A DNA stretch of 64,000 bases from Microvirga sp. 3-52 (GTDB taxonomy: Bacteria > Pseudomonadota > Alphaproteobacteria > Rhizobiales > Beijerinckiaceae). Below, one piece after another: positions 3,866-49,524 of the stretch (position 1 is its first letter; the number at the start of each line of letters is the position of its first letter). The stretch covers positions 14,049 through 78,048 of the forward strand of contig NZ_JAHAMK010000020.1 in NCBI RefSeq assembly GCF_018383585.1, read 5' to 3'. The translations under genes and the position numbers were made by a program. The notes under the pieces were generated by a model. The model had not been told where the DNA came from. It worked only from the letters and a program-made list of their open reading frames with translations, and searched no databases.

Positions 3866-5788
<1,923 letters not shown>

Positions 5789-5812
5789 AGCATGAGCGCT
5801 CTGTAAGGAATT

Positions 5813-5845
5813 CGGCACCCGGTTTCATGACCGGGTGCCGTTTTC
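5813..5845 (+). terminator. Rho-independent terminator after dnaK
   Basis: A 10-bp stem CGGCACCCGG / CCGGGTGCCG (5813-5822, 5831-5840) with an 8-base loop, followed by TTTTCGT. It lies 25 bases after the dnaK stop and would reduce read-through into dnaJ. Confidence 0.8.
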
Positions 5846-5993
5846 GTGAATAGGCTCGACACAATAATGACCGATCAACCAACCGATTTTCGCACCCCTT
5901 CGGCAGAAGCTGCCGGGGCCTCTCCCTTTCGGATGCATGCGAAACGGTCCGGCAGCATGATGGAGCGGCCGACCGCTCCCAGGGGCGCCTGAT

Positions 5994-7145
5994 ATGTCCA
6001 AGCGCGACTATTACGAGGTTCTCGGCGTCTCGCGGACCGCGACCGAAGCGGAGATGAAATCCGCCTTCCGCAAGCTCGCGATGCAGTACCACCCGGACCG
6101 CAACCCGGGCGACCACGAGGCCGAGGTCAAGTTCAAGGAAATCAACGAGGCTTACCAGACCCTCTCCGACGGCCAGAAGCGCGCGGCCTACGACCGCTTC
6201 GGCCATGCCGCCTTCGCCAACGGCGGACCGGGCGGCGGCGGACCGGGCTTCGGCGGCGACTTCTCCGACTTCATGTCGGACATCTTCGAGAATTTCTTCG
6301 GTGATGCCGGGCGCGGCAGCGGACGCGGGCGTGGAGCCGGCGGCGGGCGCGAGCGCGGCGCCGACATGCGCTACAACCTCGAGATCTCCCTCGACGAGGC
6401 CTATAACGGCAAGACCGCCGAGCTGAAGATCCCGACCTCCATCACCTGCGAGGCCTGCTCCGGATCCGGCGCGAAGCCCGGCTCCAAGCCCAAGGCCTGC
6501 CCCACCTGCGGCGGCGCGGGCCGGGTGCGGGCGACGCAGGGCTTCTTCTCCATCGAGCGCACCTGCCCCAACTGCCACGGGCGCGGCGAGGTCATCGACG
6601 ATCCCTGCGGCCAATGCGGCGGCGCCGGCCGCGTCACCCGGGAGCGTACGCTCTCGGTCAACATCCCGGCGGGCGTCGAGGACGGCACGCGCATCCGGCT
6701 GGCGGGCGAAGGCGAGGCCGGCCTGCGCGGCGGGCCTCCGGGCGATCTCTACATCTTCCTGTCCCTGAAACCCCATCCGTTCTTCCAGCGCGACGGGGCC
6801 GACCTGTTCTGCCGGGTTCCGATCTCCATGGTGACGGCGGCGCTCGGCGGCGAGTTCAGCGTTCCGACGCTCAGCGGCACCGACGCGCTCGTGAAGGTTC
6901 CCGAGGGCACCCAGACAGGCAAGCAGTTCCGCCTCAAGGGAAAAGGCATGCCGGTGCTGCGCTCGCGGGACGTGGGCGACCTGTACATCCAGGTAGTTGT
7001 GGAAACTCCGCAGAAGCTCACCAAGCGCCAGCGCGAACTCCTGACGGAGTTCGACCAGGAATGCTCCAAGGAAAACCACCCGGAAAGCTCGGGCTTTTTC
7101 TCGCGTTTCCGGGAGTTTATCGACGGGCTGGGTGGATCAACTTAA
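5994..7145 (+). CDS. dnaJ: Co-chaperone DnaJ (Hsp40)
   Basis: A 383-residue class I J-protein. The J domain occupies about residues 1-70 with HPD at 33-35. A Gly/Phe-rich linker follows (about 75-125), then a zinc-finger region with four CxxCxGxG-type repeats ([32 protein letters not shown]) and the C-terminal substrate-binding domains. It stimulates DnaK ATPase and delivers substrates. The start at 5994 gives the standard [13 protein letters not shown]-terminus. The 205-base gap after dnaK contains a terminator, so dnaJ depends on read-through or on a promoter that I could not locate. Confidence 0.98.
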
Positions 7146-7165
7146 CTTGACGGTCGTTTTCCTCA

Positions 7166-7268
7166 GCGCATCGTGCGGAAGAAGTGGATCCGGTTTTTCC
7201 GCTCTAGACGATGCGCCCGTTAAATGAGAAGCATCGGGTTGATCCCAAAAGTGGCTTCCACTTTTGGG
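7166..7268. repeat. Dispersed palindromic repeat (family 3)
   Basis: Two nested palindromes. One is GCGCATCGT (7166-7174) with ACGATGCGC (7208-7216). The other is an 11-bp stem CCCAAAAGTGG / CCACTTTTGGG (7244-7254, 7258-7268) with loop CTT. A related CATCGGATCCCAAA...TTTCGGGATCC...CCGATG unit occurs at 24657-24705. It fills the dnaJ-pmtA gap and lacks the T-run of a typical terminator. Confidence 0.7.
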
Positions 7269-7327
7269 TCCGAGGCTTCGGGGTTCTAAACAGCCAACGT
7301 GATCCGTCGCACAAGGGGTCCTGATCA

Positions 7328-7951
7328 GTGCTTCAGTCGTTCCAACGGCCAACGGCCCGGAAAATTCCCCTCAAGAAGGATCGTTTCCAAGACGAGGCCC
7401 GGTTCCTGCGCTCCTGGCTCGAACGGCCCCTCGTCGTCGGCGCCGTCACCCCGTCCGGCAAGATTCTGGCCAGGACCATGGCCTCCTACGTGGATCCGCG
7501 CATTCCCGGTCCAGTCATCGAGCTCGGCCCCGGCACGGGTCCGGTGACCGACGCCCTGATCCGGCGCGGGGTGGCACAGGAGCGGCTGGTCCTCATCGAA
7601 TACAGCCCTGAATTCTGTCAGCTCCTGAAGCGCCGCTTCCCCAAGGCGACGATCATCCAGGGCGATGCCTACGATCTCAAGGAAACGCTCTCCGGGATCC
7701 TGAAGGAGCCGGCGGCCGCCACCGTGTCCAGCCTGCCGCTCTTCACCAAGCCCATGGACCAGCGCCTGGACCTTCTGGAAGCCGCTCAAGGGATGATGCA
7801 CCCCAACGGGCCCTTCATTCAGTTCACCTATGCGGTGGTGCCGCCGATCCCGGCGCGCTCGCAGGCCTACAAAGCCAAAGCCTCCAACCGGATCTGGCGC
7901 AACCTGCCCCCGGCCCGCGTCTGGATCTACAACAAGGTCAACCATCCATGA
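7328..7951 (+). CDS. pmtA: Phospholipid N-methyltransferase (PmtA-type)
   Basis: A 207-residue SAM-dependent methyltransferase with motif [11 protein letters not shown] near residues 64-73 and an acidic motif II ending IEYSPEF. The N-terminal amphipathic helix ([19 protein letters not shown]) and overall layout match bacterial PmtA, which methylates phosphatidylethanolamine to phosphatidylcholine at the inner membrane. Similarity to KsgA-like rRNA methylases is a caveat, but the length and N-terminus favour PmtA. The start codon is GTG at 7328 with AAGGGG about 10 bases upstream. Its stop overlaps the pyrF start (ATGA), suggesting translational coupling. Confidence 0.82.
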
Positions 7952-8688
7952 GCGCCGCGATGTCTCTTTCGACGAATCCCATTCCCGCAGGAGACATTCG
8001 CGACAAGCTCATCATCGGCCTCGACGTTCCGTCCGTCGAGGAGGCCCGCGCCGTCGTCGGCCGCATCGGGGAGGCCGGCACGTTCTACAAGATCGGCTAT
8101 CAGCTTGCCTACGCGGGCGGTTTCGAGTTCGCCCAGGAGCTGATCGGACAGGGCAAGAAGGTCTTTCTCGATCTCAAGCTCCACGACATCGGCAACACGG
8201 TGGAGAAAGGCGTGCGCTCCGTGGCCCGCCTCGGCGCCACGTTCCTGACGGTCCATGCCTATCCGCAGACCATGCGCGCGGCCGTCGCCGGGAAAGCCGG
8301 AACGGACCTGAAGATCCTCGCCGTGACCGTGCTCACGTCCTATGACGACAATGACCTCGTCGAGGCGGGCTATGCCCACACATCGGCCGCGGACCTCGTC
8401 GCCCGCCGCGCCGGGCAGGCGCGCGATCTCAACGTGGACGGCGTCGTCTGCGCCGCGCCGGAAGCGCAGCGCGTGCGCACCGTCGTCGGCCCCGACCGGC
8501 TCATCGTGACGCCCGGCATTCGGCCTGCGGGTGCGGATGCGGGCGACCAGAAGCGCATCGTGACGCCGGCGCAAGGCATTCGGCTCGGAGCCGACCACCT
8601 CGTGGTCGGCCGCCCGATCGTGAAGGCCGCCGATCCGCGTGCGGCCGCGGAAGCGATTGTGCGGGAAATTGCCGACGTGAAGGCTTGA
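7948..8688 (+). CDS. pyrF: Orotidine 5'-phosphate decarboxylase
   Basis: A 246-residue TIM-barrel enzyme that makes UMP from OMP in the last step of de novo pyrimidine synthesis. The signature [11 protein letters not shown], with the catalytic Lys and Asp, is intact, and the C-terminal phosphate loop LVVGRPIV is present. Its start overlaps the end of pmtA by 4 bases. DUF1330 genes follow after 54 bases and may be co-transcribed. Confidence 0.96.
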
Positions 8689-8742
8689 CGATAATGCCCC
8701 TCTGGCGTTCGCTGCCTCCCCGAAAACCAAGAGGAACGCTTC

Positions 8743-9030
8743 ATGCCTAAAGGCTATGTCATCGCCCGCGTGACCGTCACGAACCCCGAAGCCTATGCGG
8801 AATACGCTAAAGGCGCGACGGAGGCGATCCGCAAGTATGGCGGGCGCCCGCTGGTGCGCGGCGGCGCCTACGAGGCGCTGGAGGGCGAGGCAAGGCCCCG
8901 CAACGTGGTGATCGAGTTCGACTCCGTCGAGCAGGCCCGGACCTATTACAACTCACCGGAATATCGGGCCGCCAAGGCCAAGCGCGAAGGCGCCTGCGTG
9001 GCGGAATTCGTTCTCGTGGAAGGAGCCTGA
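8743..9030 (+). CDS. DUF1330 family protein (copy 1)
   Basis: A 95-residue protein matching DUF1330, a dimeric alpha/beta-barrel (ferredoxin-like) fold: N-terminal GYVIARVTVTNPEAYAEYA, central GGRPLVRGG, and RNVVIEFDS followed by a YYNSPEYRAAKAKRE helix. AGAGGAA precedes the ATG. The biochemical role of the family is not settled. It has a tandem paralogue 4 bases downstream. Confidence 0.9.
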   Translation: MPKGYVIARVTVTNPEAYAEYAKGATEAIRKYGGRPLVRGGAYEALEGEARPRNVVIEFDSVEQARTYYNSPEYRAAKAKREGACVAEFVLVEGA

Positions 9031-9034
9031 AGCG

Positions 9035-9337
9035 ATGAAGGGTTATTGGATCGGCCGCGTCGACGTCTCGAACCCCGACGCCTACCAGAATTACGTGAAG
9101 GCCAATGCCGTGCCGTTCGCCAAATACGGCGCCCGCTTCCTGGTGCGCGGGGGCAAATACCGGGTCGCCGAAGGCGAAGCCCGCGCCCGCAACGTGGTGA
9201 TCGAATTCCCGACCTACGAGGCGGCCCTGGAATGCTGGGACTCGCCCGAATACCAGGCGGCCAAAGCCGAGCGCGACGGTCATGCCGTTGCCGACATCAT
9301 CATCATCGAGGGCTACGAGGGCCAGCAGCCGGGGTGA
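9035..9337 (+). CDS. DUF1330 family protein (copy 2)
   Basis: A 100-residue paralogue of the preceding gene, separated by 4 bases and clearly from tandem duplication: GYWIGRVDVSNPDAYQNYV, FLVRGGKYRV, RNVVIEFP and SPEYQAAKAERDG align along the whole length. AAGCG precedes the ATG weakly, so coupling to copy 1 is likely. The two products could form a heterodimer, since family members dimerise (inference). Function unknown. Confidence 0.9.
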   Translation: MKGYWIGRVDVSNPDAYQNYVKANAVPFAKYGARFLVRGGKYRVAEGEARARNVVIEFPTYEAALECWDSPEYQAAKAERDGHAVADIIIIEGYEGQQPG

Positions 9338-9348
9338 GTTCCCTCAAC

Positions 9349-9565
9349 CGTCATGGCCGGCCTTGTGCCGGTGATCCCGATGATGAGAGACGCGGTGCTT
9401 TTCTGACCGAGATGACCGGGACTGATCCCCGGATCAAGTCCGGGGACGGCCATGACGCGGTGGATGTCATTCCCGGCCGGAGCGAAGCGGAGGGAAAGGG
9501 AATCCAGAGCGCTAAGCGTGTCATTGGATCCCCTTCCCGGTCCTTGCGGACCGCCGGGGATGACA
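9349..9565. repeat. Cluster of REP-like palindromes
   Basis: This fills almost all of the 305-base gap between DUF1330 copy 2 and dapB. The left part has GTCATGGCCGG and GTGATCCCGATGATGAGA. The middle has a CCCCGGATC/ GATCCGGGG-like stem and GGCCATGACG. The right part has the GTCATTCCCGGCCGGAGCGAAG unit ending near GGGGATGACAAG. No gene is supported here. Confidence 0.8.
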
Positions 9566-9642
9566 AGAGGAGCGCGATCCTCCGCGCTTCTCAGCCGTTC
9601 CCCGAGCGGCTATACCCGACCGTCTAACAACAGGAGAGCGGC

Positions 9643-10458
9643 ATGAGCGAGATGCGACTCGTCGTGGTAGGTGCGGCCGGACGCATGGGGCGCATGCTCA
9701 TCAAAACCGTCGCCGAGACCGAGGGCTGCACCCTTGTCGGCGCCATCGAGCGGGAAGGCTCTCCGGCGCTCGGGCACGATGCCGGGCTTCTCGCCGGGGT
9801 CGGCCTGCTCGACGTGGACGTGACCGACGATCCGCTGACCGTCTTTGCCCAGGCCGACGGCGTCCTCGATTTCACGGCGCCGGCCGCCACCATCGCGTTC
9901 GCGGCGCTTGCCGCCCAGGCGCGCATCGTCCATGTGATCGGGACCACCGGCCTGCAGGACGCCGATTTCACCAAGCTGGAGGCGGCCGCGCGCCACGCGC
10001 GCATCGTCCAGTCCGGCAACATGTCGCTGGGCGTAAACCTGCTCGCCGGCCTCGTGCGCAAGGCGGCGGCGACCCTGGGCGAAGACTTCGACATCGAGAT
10101 CCTCGAGATGCACCACCGCATGAAGGTGGATGCGCCCTCGGGCACCGCTCTCCTCCTCGGCGAAGCGGCCGCAGAGGGACGCAAGATCCCGCTGAAAGAG
10201 CGCTCGGTGCGCAGCCGCGACGGCCATACCGGCGCGCGCAATCCAGGCGACATCGGCTTTGCCACCCTGCGCGGAGGCTCCGTGGTGGGCGAGCATTCGG
10301 TGATCTTCGCAGGCGCCGGCGAGCGCCTGGAACTCTCGCACCGTGCCGAGGATCGCACCATCTTCGCCCGCGGCGCGGTAAGAGCCGCCCTCTGGGGCTT
10401 CGACAAGAAGCCGGGCTATTACACCATGGCCGATGTTCTTGGCCTCGATCAGCTCTAA
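9643..10458 (+). CDS. dapB: 4-hydroxy-tetrahydrodipicolinate reductase
   Basis: A 271-residue DapB, which reduces the dihydrodipicolinate precursor with NAD(P)H in the lysine/diaminopimelate pathway. The nucleotide-binding motif GAAGRMGRM is at residues 10-18, the GTTGL loop is in the middle, and the catalytic [15 protein letters not shown] (His pair and Lys) is intact. ATG at 9643 has CAGGAGAG upstream. gpmA follows after 39 bases and may be in the same transcript. Confidence 0.97.
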
Positions 10459-10497
10459 AACACGCCATTCACGGGTATCAATCGGAGACGCCAAGAC

Positions 10498-11118
10498 ATG
10501 AACCGCCTTCTCGTCCTTGCACGCCACGGCCAGAGCGACTGGAACCTCAAGAACCTGTTCACCGGCTGGAAGGATCCGGGGCTCACCGATCTCGGCATCG
10601 AGGAGGCGCGCAATGCCGGCCGTCGCCTGAAGGAAATGGGCGTCCAGTTCGACATCGCCTTCACGTCGGATCTGTCGCGCGCGCAGGCCACCTGCAAGCT
10701 GATCCTCGAAGAGATCGGCCAGCCCGATCTGAAAACCATCGCGAACCTGGCCCTGAACGAGCGCGATTACGGTGATCTCTCCGGCCTCAACAAGGACGAC
10801 GCCCGCGCCCGTTGGGGCGAGGAGCAGGTCCATGTCTGGCGCCGCTCCTACGACGTGCCTCCTCCCGGCGGCGAGAGCCTGAAGGACACGGTGGCCCGCG
10901 TGCTGCCCTACTACATCCGCGAGATCCTGCCCCGGGTGATGCGCGGCGAGCGCGTGCTCGTGGCGGCCCACGGCAACTCCCTGCGCGCCCTCGTGATGGT
11001 GCTCGACGGCCTCACCTCGGAGACGATCCCGAGCCTCGAGCTCGCGACGGGCATCCCGCTGGTCTACACCCTCAACGAGGATACGACTGTCGCCGACAAG
11101 AAGGTGCTGGAGGGGTGA
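10498..11118 (+). CDS. gpmA: 2,3-bisphosphoglycerate-dependent phosphoglycerate mutase
   Basis: A 206-residue short-form dPGM, the usual alphaproteobacterial length, interconverting 3- and 2-phosphoglycerate in glycolysis/gluconeogenesis. The phospho-acceptor His10 lies in [19 protein letters not shown] supplies the catalytic Glu, and [10 protein letters not shown] carries the second His. It follows dapB by 39 bases. Family-1 repeats begin right after its stop. Confidence 0.96.
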
Positions 11119-17144: not shown

Positions 17145-17258
17145 GGAACAACCGCGCACGAGGAACCGTTTGACTTATCACCTGATCGGTCCTCCGCCCA
17201 AGGGCGGACTGGCATTATCCGTCGGAGCCGATAGAGTGTTCTTTATAAGAGATAGTGT

Positions 17259-46325: not shown

Positions 46326-46976
46326 GGCGTTCCAACCGATGTGAGGGGCTTCTCGCTTAACCTGCCTCCGCGACCGCGTGAAGCCTCCATCGTCATGCCA
46401 CCAGCAGCGACCAAGGCGCACACGGCGGATGAGCCCGGGAGCGAGTCACGGATGAGGCTCCGCTCATCCCCTCATGCACGAGTCGCGGATCGTGATTCTC
46501 GACTCGTGCACGACCCGTGGACCGATTTTCGACTCCGATCGACAAATTTTTTTGCGCTTCACGCACGAGGTCTCCGAAGCGCATGGAAAGCGTCTTCGAC
46601 CCTCTCCAAGTGAAGAGGTTTCCGGTTGCGACGTTGAACGTTCTTGAACACATCCGAATACTCTGCGGACGTTTAACATCTTCTTTACCCATTGGCTAAG
46701 TCTTTGCCACCCAATGTTATTTTCAACTCATCGGAACTGCGCTCCGTCGCGTGCACCGACATCGACGCAACTGAAGAAGAGACCCTAACTGTCTCATCTT
46801 GAACCCGATATTGAGTCTTGGATCTGCAAGTGAAGAGAGACATGCCAAGCAACATATCCACAGAAAAAGTGAGCGTTCTACTGTCAACACTTTCCGATAA
46901 TCGGAACCCCGTTGGTATAACGACGTTGCCTTGCAAGCGTGACGGTTGCACGCGAAGGCCCTTGAAGGAGGCGGCA
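46326..46976. other. Long divergent region between eamA and the histone-like gene
   Basis: 651 bases, less GC-rich than its neighbours from about 46530. It holds an 11-bp inverted repeat TGCACGAGTCG / CGACTCGTGCA (46475-46485, 46500-46510), a poly-T run in 46551-46557 and, near its end, an EcfG-type promoter. I see no supported gene. A small RNA is possible but not shown. Confidence 0.5.
46903..46927 (+). promoter_or_regulatory. EcfG-type general stress promoter of the histone-like gene
   Basis: GGAAC (46903-46907), 16 bases, CGTT (46924-46927): an exact match to the alphaproteobacterial sigma-EcfG consensus GGAAC-N16/17-CGTT, about 50 bases before the start codon. Confidence 0.75.
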
Positions 46977-47642
46977 ATGCCGACAGACACCAAGTCAAAC
47001 CCGCTGACGATGCTGTTCACGGGAGACACCGGTGCGACCAGCACCAAGAAGACCGCTAAGAAGAGCAGCGCACGCCGCAGCTCGACCAGCACCGCCAAGA
47101 AGGCTGGAACGAAGAAGACCGCTGCCAAGAAGACGGCAGCGAAGTCGACCTCCCGGTCGGCAACGAAATCTTCGGCCAAGTCAGGCGCGAAGAAGACCAC
47201 TGCCAAGAAGGCCGTCGCCAAGAAGACCACGGCGAAGACCACGGCAAAGAAGACCGCTGCCAAGAAGACCTCGGCCCGTCCGTCGGCCAAGTCGGCAGCT
47301 AAGAAGACCACCGCCAGGACGGCCGCCGCCAAGAAGACGACCGCCAAGAAGACGACTGCGAAGAAGACTTCGGCCAAATCGGCCGCCAAGAAGTCCTCTG
47401 CTCGTTCGGCTTCGACGTCGGCTCGTTCGACGGCCCGGAAGTCTGCCTCTCGCAGCTCCAGCCGCGGTGCGGTGAAGACGGCTTCGAAGTCGCGCAACGC
47501 CTCCAAGTTGACCCCGAAGCGTGCAGCGGCCGCTTCGAGCCGGACCTCTGCCACGAAGAAGTCGGGCACGGTCGCCAAGCGGTCTTCCGGCTCCCGCTCC
47601 TCGAGCGCTCGCAAGAGCCCCTCGAAGTCGCGGAAGCGCTAA
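46977..47642 (+). CDS. Histone H1-like Lys/Ala-rich DNA-binding protein
   Basis: A 221-residue, very basic, low-complexity protein built from KKTTAKK, AKKTAAKK and SAKSAAKK-type units, like the C-terminal tails of histone H1 and bacterial Hc1/AlgP-like proteins. It would bind and compact DNA non-specifically. AAGGAGG lies 7 bases before ATG 46977, so the frame open from 46818 is not the start. An EcfG-type promoter upstream suggests production in stress or stationary phase. A strong terminator follows. Repeat number probably varies between strains. Confidence 0.88.
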   Translation: MPTDTKSNPLTMLFTGDTGATSTKKTAKKSSARRSSTSTAKKAGTKKTAAKKTAAKSTSRSATKSSAKSGAKKTTAKKAVAKKTTAKTTAKKTAAKKTSARPSAKSAAKKTTARTAAAKKTTAKKTTAKKTSAKSAAKKSSARSASTSARSTARKSASRSSSRGAVKTASKSRNASKLTPKRAAAASSRTSATKKSGTVAKRSSGSRSSSARKSPSKSRKR

Positions 47643-47704
47643 GACAAGCATGCCGCAAGCGCCGGGAGTGGATCTTTCCTACCGCCCGGCGCCTGCGCAT
47701 AGAA

Positions 47705-47737
47705 AATCGCCCGGCGAGAGCCGGGCGATTTTGTTTT
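47705..47737. terminator. Bidirectional terminator between convergent genes
   Basis: 11-bp stem AATCGCCCGGC / GCCGGGCGATT with loop GAGA (47705-47730), followed by TTGTTTT and preceded by GAAAA. It serves the histone-like gene and probably the convergent PRC-barrel gene. Confidence 0.88.
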
Positions 47738-47756
47738 GACAGGATCGCCGTTCGGG

Positions 47757-48170
47757 CTATCGACCGGTGCTCATCGGGTCGCTTCCGCCCCAATAGGGCG
47801 TCGCGTTGTAATAGCGATGAACGTGCTCTTCCCATTCGCGGTCGTAGGAAGCGTCATGCCCTTCCGCGCTGCGGCGCGGCGCCCCACGCAGCTGATCCTC
47901 CGTGAGGTTCAGCTCATAGGCGTCGAGCTCGATGTTGTACTTCAGGACGCTCCAGGGAAGCGTGTAGTATTCCTCACCGAGCCCCATGAAGCCGCCGAAG
48001 CTCATGACCGCATAGGCGACCTTGCCGGATCGCTTCTCGATCATCACGCGCTCGATCGTTCCGATCTTCTCGCCGTCCGAGCGGCGCACCGGCGTTCCTT
48101 CGACCTTGTCGCTGGCAATCAGGCTGTGGGTTTCGCGAACGTCGCTGCTTTGTGCCGTCGTCTGCATCAT
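47757..48170 (-). CDS. PRC-barrel domain protein
   Basis: A 137-residue soluble protein. Residues about 14-90 form a PRC-barrel (SLIASDKVEGTPVRRSDGEKIGTIERVMIEKRSGKVAYAVM, LPWSVLKY). The C-terminal 45 residues are hydrophilic and rich in Tyr/His/Glu. Such proteins are common in rhizobial stress regulons, but their partner is unknown. AGGGAG precedes the ATG. A sigma-EcfG promoter match (GGAAC-N17-CGTT) lies immediately upstream. It is divergent from the SDR gene, which also has one. Confidence 0.88.
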   Translation of the reverse strand: MMQTTAQSSDVRETHSLIASDKVEGTPVRRSDGEKIGTIERVMIEKRSGKVAYAVMSFGGFMGLGEEYYTLPWSVLKYNIELDAYELNLTEDQLRGAPRRSAEGHDASYDREWEEHVHRYYNATPYWGGSDPMSTGR

Positions 48171-48201
48171 TTCGCTCCCTTCGTGTGTGAGATCATAAGG
48201 C

Positions 48202-48227
48202 AACGCCCGGGTTGAAAGGCGGGTTCC
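48202..48227 (-). promoter_or_regulatory. EcfG-type promoter of the PRC-barrel gene
   Basis: Minus strand GGAAC (48227-48223), 17 bases, CGTT (48205-48202), 32 bases before the PRC-barrel ATG. Exact consensus match. Confidence 0.75.
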
Positions 48228-48294
48228 GGTTTCGGGCCGGAAGCCCAGGGTTTCCAACACTCTCGTCGGGTTTCTCCCACCAAGCGCTGCCGTA

Positions 48295-48319
48295 GGAACC
48301 CCCTTCCCGACCTTACGTT
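48295..48319 (+). promoter_or_regulatory. EcfG-type promoter of the SDR gene
   Basis: GGAAC (48295-48299), 16 bases, CGTT (48316-48319), about 42 bases before the SDR start. Exact consensus match, divergent from the element at 48202-48227. Confidence 0.75.
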
Positions 48320-48360
48320 GACCCACGTTTACGAAACTTGAGGCTATGAAGGAGAGTGCC

Positions 48361-49524
48361 ATGGCGGTTCGCCAGAAGCCGGTTGAAGACCAGGTCGTCG
48401 TCATCACCGGCGCATCCAGCGGCATAGGACTTGCGACGGCCCATCTGTTTGCCGAACGCGGCGCCAAGGGTCTCGTCCTGGTCGCCCGCAACGAAGACGC
48501 CTTGCGCAAGATCGCCGACGAGCTCGGCCGCGGGTCGACGCGTGCGATCGCGGTTGCCGCAGATGTCAGCAAGCGCGAAGATCTCGAGCGGGTGGCACGC
48601 ACCGCCATCGAGACCTTCGGCGGCTTCGACACCTGGGTGAACGATGCCGCAGTGGCCCTGTACGGGAACCTCAACGACATCCCGCTGGAGGACCAGCGCC
48701 AGCTCTTCGACGTGAACTATTGGGGCGTGGTCAACGGCTCGATGATCGCGGCGGACCACCTGCGCCAACGCGGCGGCACCATCATCAATCTGGGGAGCGT
48801 CCTGTCCGAGCGGGCCATGATCCTCCAGACCCAGTATTCGGCCTCCAAGCACGCCGTGAAGGCTTTCACGGAGGGCCTGCGCATGGAGCTGGCAAACCAG
48901 GGTGCGCCGGTCTCGGTCACGCTCATCAAGCCCTCGTCCATCGACACGCCTTACGTCGAACATGCCCGCAACTATCTCGATCGGGAAAACGCCGTTCCGC
49001 CTCCGGCCTACGATCCGCATCTCGTCGCCAAGGCGATCGTGTACGCCGCGGAGCACCACAGGCGCGAAATCACCATCGGGTTCGGCGGCTGGGTCATCGG
49101 CGCCATGGGCAAGGTCGCGCCTCACCTCGTCGACAAGGCGATGGAATGGACGGGCTATGGTTCGCAGACGACGGATCACCCCGAACGGCCGGGAATGCGG
49201 GACAACCTCTATCGCGCCCGCGAGGACGGCGACATGTATTCGTCTCTTCCCGGCGAGCCGCGCAAGACGAGCCTGCTCCTCGAAGCGCAGATTCACCCGA
49301 TCGTGACGGCCACTCTGCTGGCCGGCGTCGCTGCCGGCCTCGCGGCCCTGTTCCTGCCGTCTCTGGCGGCGAGCCGGCGTCCGAAGCGGTTCAAGCGGCC
49401 GACACCCCGCTATCAGCCTCAGCCAGCCATGCGCCGCAGCGGCAATGGTCATGACAAGCGCACCTTCGGGCCAGGTCACATGAGTCAGCGCGGTCCTTAT
49501 GAAGGCCGTCCGCAGCCGAGGCAC
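48361..49524 (+). CDS. SDR family oxidoreductase with C-terminal membrane segment
   Basis: A 387-residue SDR. The cofactor motif TGASSGIG is near residue 17, the NNAG motif is replaced by WVNDAAVA, the catalytic Ser is in INLGSVLSERA, and YSASK supplies Tyr/Lys. After the Rossmann domain (about 1-250) comes an extension with one hydrophobic segment (about 318-340, IVTATLLAGVAAGLAALFLP) and a basic Arg/Pro/Gln-rich tail. ATG 48361 follows AAGGAGAG, so it is preferred to ATG 48346. The stop codon TGA occupies 49525-49527. An EcfG promoter match places it in the general stress response. Substrate unknown. Confidence 0.9.

Follow-up and report, generated by a model that had tools for sequence, protein, structure and literature searches.

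Candidate sigma-EcfG promoters of a histone H1-like, a PRC-barrel and an SDR gene in Microvirga, and a near-invariant control region at the histone gene

Introduction

In the alphaproteobacterial general stress response, phosphorylated PhyR sequesters NepR under stress and thereby frees sigma-EcfG. The motif of R. etli EcfG1 is GGAAC-N16-CGTT (PMC3892343), and in S. melonis the EcfG motif is enriched within 100 bp of starts, one example being PRC-barrel gene #1478, whose start lies 27 nt from its motif (PMC6599016). The RpoE2-dependent genes of S. meliloti include the PRC-barrel gene SMb20522 and the short-chain dehydrogenase gene SMa0187 (PMC6180224); a start site has been mapped at the RpoE2 promoter of the former (PMC6180224, PMC3616915), in a start-site study that allowed promoters 5 to 12 nt before the start (PMC3616915).

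In the current study, we analyzed a 64,000-nt stretch of the genome of Microvirga sp. 3-52 (the window), in which a histone H1-like, a PRC-barrel and an SDR gene are each preceded by such a motif. The locus shares with the sigma-EcfG (ECF15) regulons of these three organisms the two boxes, their spacing and a PhyR-NepR-EcfG locus, and the published sections covered here already contain PRC-barrel and SDR targets. It differs from them in its histone: among the papers listed for PhyR, EcfG or sigma factor together with histone, none reported an H1-like EcfG target, although one may stand in supplementary tables, and the main text of a Methylobacterium paper (PMC4814048) contains neither "histone" nor "PRC." Among the papers listed for Microvirga together with "general stress response," there was likewise no study of that response in the genus; the one that mentions Microvirga most often has a single, generic use of the phrase.

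Results

The window contains four exact matches to GGAAC-N16/17-CGTT on its two strands. Three of them had been reported in a preliminary description of this DNA, at 46903-46927 (+, N16), 48227-48202 (-, N17) and 48295-48319 (+, N16), and we recovered them as given and in the correct orientation (Table 1). The 35 to 55 bases to the start codon that it gave were roughly right; counted from CGTT, we obtained 49 for the histone gene (ATG at 46977), 31 for the PRC gene (ATG at 48170) and 41 for the SDR gene (ATG at 48361). The last of these start codons is preceded by AAGGAG, and an in-frame ATG at 48346 would give 26 nt from CGTT. Approximately one chance match per window had been expected, in agreement with the mean of 0.89 that we found in 100 shuffles of the window, 2 of which reached at least four matches. 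The fourth match (17145-17170, +), which the preliminary description did not contain, reaches into the beginning of an ORF on the reverse strand, whose product we take to resemble that of glnD; between the end of the match and the earliest possible start codon of a forward ORF there are 84 bases. It has no clear target and is probably a chance occurrence.

Table 1. Features of the histone-PRC-SDR locus (positions in the window)
Feature	Position	Strand	Evidence
Conserved upstream block (ATATCCACAGAAAAAGTG...TTCTAC...ACTTTCCG)	46854..46896	+	29/60 columns before -35 box invariant
Operator-like dyad TTCCG-N5-CGGAA(C) over EcfG -35 box	46892..46907	+	27/31 named loci; absent from L041, L042, L043, L068
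Putative -35 box GGAAC, histone promoter	46903..46907	+	31/31 named Microvirga loci
TGGTATAAC, extended -10-like (housekeeping sigma); hypothetical second promoter	46913..46921	+	columns 46914-46923
Putative -10 box CGTT, histone promoter	46924..46927	+	motif scan; locus comparison
49-nt leader, dyad GCGTG-N7-CACGC and Shine-Dalgarno AAGGAGG	46928..46976	+	46/49 columns invariant
Histone H1-like gene, 221 aa, Lys/Ala/Ser/Thr-rich, pI ~12	46977..47642	+	Pfam HC2 39.1 bits vs cut-off 40; composition
PRC-barrel gene, 137 aa	47757..48170	-	Pfam PRC E 1.3e-14
Putative EcfG promoter of PRC gene, N17 spacer	48202..48227	-	31/31 named Microvirga loci; 16/28 other-genus relatives
Putative EcfG promoter of SDR gene, N16 spacer	48295..48319	+	30/31 named Microvirga loci
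SDR oxidoreductase gene, 388 aa	48361..49527	+	adh_short E 1.6e-46; NCBIfam PRK07109 subfamily 367 bits, cut-off 264

A motif this short invites the explanation that its three matches are chance occurrences and that the genes are expressed from other promoters. The whole-genome scan proposed in the preliminary description did reveal an excess over a backwards control, but a mild one (124 versus 85 matches). Summed over 41 Microvirga genomes, the counts were 5336 for the motif and 4290 for the control, with the motif ahead in 34 genomes and the control equal or higher in 7. Most matches genome-wide are at chance level, and the counts by themselves are barely convincing as evidence for the motif; this modest excess and the fourth match, with its lack of a clear target, are the observations that favor chance. 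The clustering is more unusual: at the genome's own motif rate, the probability of at least three matches within a preset 1425 bp is approximately 6e-6, and the control rate leads to a rough estimate of 0.015 such clusters per genome. We nevertheless judge the motif to be real because the comparison across loci, unlike the counts, settles the matter.

For this comparison, a search of the named genomes with the SDR protein gave 35 loci, 32 of them from Microvirga and 3 of them distant matches at 28-35% identity. Exclusion of the distant loci and of one contig fragment (L070) left 31 Microvirga loci with a full match (L040-L069 and L071), of which L040 is close to the window (94% identity). Upstream of all three genes the exact motif is present throughout this set (Table 1), the one exception being the SDR gene of L068, where an exact -35 box is missing. 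All four CGTT columns of the PRC and SDR promoters are invariant, while the spacers drift (0 of 17 invariant columns for PRC and 1 of 16 for SDR) and alternate between N16 and N17 among loci. Leader columns are similarly free, with 4 of 31 invariant for PRC and 3 of 41 for SDR in gapped alignments, the PRC set including three loci with inserted sequence. The low counts of invariant -35 columns in the alignment (2 of 5 for PRC and 3 of 5 for SDR) we ascribe to L068 and to the way the aligner placed gaps, because the motif scan finds the exact box present. From the end of the PRC motif to the gene there are 27-33 nt in 28 of the loci and 142-143 nt in the other three (L041, L042 and L068), since in these ca. 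110 nt of other sequence intervenes between promoter and start; the insert has inverted-repeat ends (GCGCATCGTGCGGAAA...). Six further Microvirga genomes (L204-L209) all have the histone and PRC motifs, and the SDR motif occurs in the four stretches with an SDR match, one SDR being only 40% identical.

The PRC promoter could also be followed beyond the genus. A PRC match (E <= 0.001) was obtained in 44 of 60 genomes of the GTDB family, of which 42 belong to genera other than Microvirga, and we took the best 28 of these 42 as a test set of relatives. Their orthology is not proven, and more than one PRC gene is present in several of the genomes. Over the 250 bp upstream, the coding strand carries the motif in 9 of the 10 closest relatives and in 7 of the remaining 18, and 12 of the 28 are without it. 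Control spacers of 6-7 and 26-27 scored 1/28 each, and every other pair tested (8-9 to 28-29) scored 0/28. On the reverse strand the motif was found in 4/28, some of which may be divergent promoters. The 359 other permutations of the boxes averaged 0.10 per 28; the highest scores among them (8, 4 and 2) apparently reflect the true site displaced by a single base. That 30 or 31 of 31 loci keep the motif while the PRC and SDR spacers drift, and that 16 of 28 relatives in other genera have it against 0 or 1 for other spacers, makes chance a very improbable explanation of the three matches.

Two sister-genus genomes bear on the gene order. The order helicase, EamA, slot gene, PRC, SDR and M74 is retained in G095, with extra sequence between EamA and the slot gene (the gene at the position of the histone gene), and three EcfG motifs with different spacers stand at places matching the window. 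The slot gene itself is preceded by GGAAC-N16-CGTT and a partly similar leader. Its protein (L175 2939-3688) has a different N-terminus (MPRGDKSKYTDKQ..., DKSKYT-type), followed by a basic, low-complexity tail rich in Lys, Ala and Ser. We found no Pfam match for it and one relative in the genome of Microvirga sp. 3-52 (C78, 62% over residues 1-86), at a locus from which the motif is absent. In G132, PRC and SDR are still paired and have EcfG motifs, and the stretch read contains no H1-like gene beside them.

The genome of Microvirga sp. 3-52 encodes the regulators as well. On one contig (G000:C52, locus L035), genes for PhyR (7460-8266, -), NepR (8391-8672, +) and an ECF sigma factor with Pfam sigma regions 2 and 4 (8669-9214, +) adjoin, and GGAAC-N16/17-CGTT precedes both phyR (8340, -) and nepR-ecfG (8347, +). 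Ten EcfG motifs fall within the 6 kb around these genes (5110-10907), several in divergent pairs and one before another PRC-barrel gene. NepR was found in all seven family genomes tested, this one included. There are four NepR-like genes in this genome, three of them outside the phyR locus (G000:C40:20253, C60:44661 and C70:15812), and their presence weakens our preferred explanation as to which sigma paralogue acts.

The proteins are described with differing precision. The PRC-barrel and SDR assignments rest on clear family scores (Table 1); by eye, the SDR protein also has a C-terminal hydrophobic stretch. The histone-like protein contains 22% Lys and 21% Ala, and "histone H1-like" is a description rather than a tested membership because its score lies just under the curated cut-off of the Hc2 family (PF07382), which is exceeded in two further genomes of the genus (G010 and G030) by their histone genes. 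Like chlamydial Hc2 and the Burkholderia H1-like proteins (PF07382, NF038052 and NF038053), it is rich in Lys and Ala and very basic; unlike them, it misses the Pfam cut-off narrowly and the NCBIfam cut-offs by a wide margin, and the likeness is possibly one of composition without common descent. An HC2 search over the GTDB family matched 38 of 80 genomes, largely through low-complexity sequence, and among the matches listed the leader motifs accompany only the two Microvirga loci of other genomes. A search with the histone N-terminus returned one match.

The region from 46854 to 46976, which comprises the histone control region and leader, is near-invariant across Microvirga, far above neutral constraint. 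In an alignment of 32 sequences (the window and the 31 loci), leader sequences have a mean pairwise identity of 0.981, compared with 0.572 at fourfold-degenerate SDR columns, 2 of 91 of which are invariant. A 95-base query over promoter and leader (46896-46990) found a match in 47 of 48 Microvirga genomes, Microvirga sp. 3-52 included; only G026, whose assembly is fragmented into 780 contigs, gave none. With a 151-base query (E <= 0.001), 10 of 10 Microvirga genomes and none of 189 other family genomes matched, the split following the complete genus list, though a diverged version could escape such a search. The element accompanies the histone gene even where no close SDR relative was found (G005 and G010).

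Several readings of its parts were considered. In the upstream block, TATCCACAGAAA has one exact match in the genome, and up to one mismatch gives 4 matches versus 13 for the backwards control. The DnaA box is TTATCCACA. TATCCACAG, considered as a candidate, resembles it but differs in the first base. None of 9 Rfam matches (E <= 5, 46400-48400) overlaps the leader, whose folding z-score of -0.25 leaves unusual RNA stability unsupported. The 42 available sequences reduce to 9 leader variants, too few for covariation, and the divergent leader of G007 has a different minimum-energy fold. An RNA thermometer was discarded: with one assumed 5' end, the predicted mean unpaired probability of the Shine-Dalgarno sequence rises only from 0.47 at 20 C to 0.56 at 50 C. 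No structural switch is predicted over alternative 5' ends and temperature. A leader peptide seen by eye (GTG ACG GTT GCA CGC GAA GGC CCT TGA) was set aside, since G005 (L177) has lost the start codon of this peptide. By eye, there is also an inverted repeat (TGCACGAGTCG...CGACTCGTGCA, 46475-46510) in the long stretch of intergenic DNA that precedes the histone gene.

Discussion

We consider it highly likely that all three sites serve as sigma-EcfG promoters in the general stress response, driving the histone-like, PRC-barrel and SDR genes. This interpretation, put forward in the preliminary description, gains support from conservation throughout the genus, from PRC promoters of other genera in which the same boxes flank unrelated spacers, and from a phyR-nepR-ecfG locus with the same motif. 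The boxes lie 16-17 nt apart at all three genes, and at PRC and SDR they are kept while the spacer drifts. At the histone gene, the spacer differs clearly only from that of G095, and conservation of its boxes is weak evidence alone because the surrounding sequence is equally frozen; the better argument for a putative EcfG promoter there comes from G095, with boxes at a matching place around a different spacer. The term "mini-regulon," also used in that description, is too narrow as a label, since the three genes seem to belong to a larger set in which the phyR locus is included.

The boxes might instead be read by another ECF sigma factor of overlapping specificity, for example of the ECF26 type. 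Such overlap is known, 27 of 40 RpoE6 targets in S. meliloti being RpoE2 targets as well, according to the sections of that study covered here; by the same source, however, the ECF26 motif is GGAATA/GT (PMC6180224), whereas exact GGAAC and CGTT fit the EcfG consensus. Given also that the motif is shared with the upstream regions of phyR and nepR-ecfG in this genome, we regard a different ECF sigma as improbable.

With sigma-EcfG as the preferred reader, one would expect stress to lead to phosphorylation of PhyR and sequestration of NepR, and the freed sigma factor to guide RNA polymerase to GGAAC-N16/17-CGTT. The three genes would then be transcribed from three separate starts, ca. 5-12 bases downstream of CGTT, the histone gene having its near-invariant control region and leader in addition to the EcfG promoter. 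EcfG dependence and these start sites are predictions from sequence. The proteins may serve in nucleoid compaction or protection (histone-like), an envelope or membrane-linked function (PRC-barrel) and redox metabolism (SDR), and the link proposed earlier among DNA compaction, a dehydrogenase and a PRC protein would be a functional one if so. As likely EcfG regulon members the three genes are ordinary in kind, PRC-barrel and SDR targets having been published elsewhere.

EcfG recognition alone is insufficient to explain the frozen histone control region and leader, which may reflect a DNA-binding regulator, a vegetative promoter or tuned translation. One specific version treats the histone gene as primarily of the housekeeping kind, with TGGTATAAC as a vegetative extended -10 that overlaps the EcfG promoter and confers dual or chiefly non-stress control; PRC and SDR would still be EcfG targets. 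In its favor, TGGTATAAC is near-invariant in Microvirga (GGTATAACGA, in the histone spacer, has 9 of 10 columns invariant), whereas the PRC and SDR spacers drift freely; pertinent too is G095, the only genome of the sister genus in which the slot is occupied, where TATAAC is absent and the EcfG boxes are kept. A strict sigma-70 scan, however, found no promoter at TGGTATAAC, no good -35 hexamer is seen, and conservation of the spacer need not imply a promoter because the sequence beyond it is equally frozen. On balance, we think such dual or chiefly vegetative control unlikely, if a good deal less so than the alternatives discussed above. Somewhat more plausible, albeit still tentative, is that a genus-specific composite element of ca. 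123 bp (TATCCACAG block, dyad, TGGTATAAC, EcfG boxes and 49-nt leader) adds a second layer of control on top of EcfG, by a vegetative promoter, a repressor or the leader RNA, and so keeps a nucleoid-compacting protein poised and tightly dosed.

Because the slot in G095 is filled by another protein, with a basic tail and an EcfG motif before its gene, a stress-controlled slot for a nucleoid protein may predate the histone now found there. An H1-like nucleoid protein becomes a further candidate target of the general stress response in Alphaproteobacteria. What is concrete and new is the near-frozen histone control region, under constraint far above that of neutral sites and of the neighboring stress promoters, a constraint that none of our tests explains.
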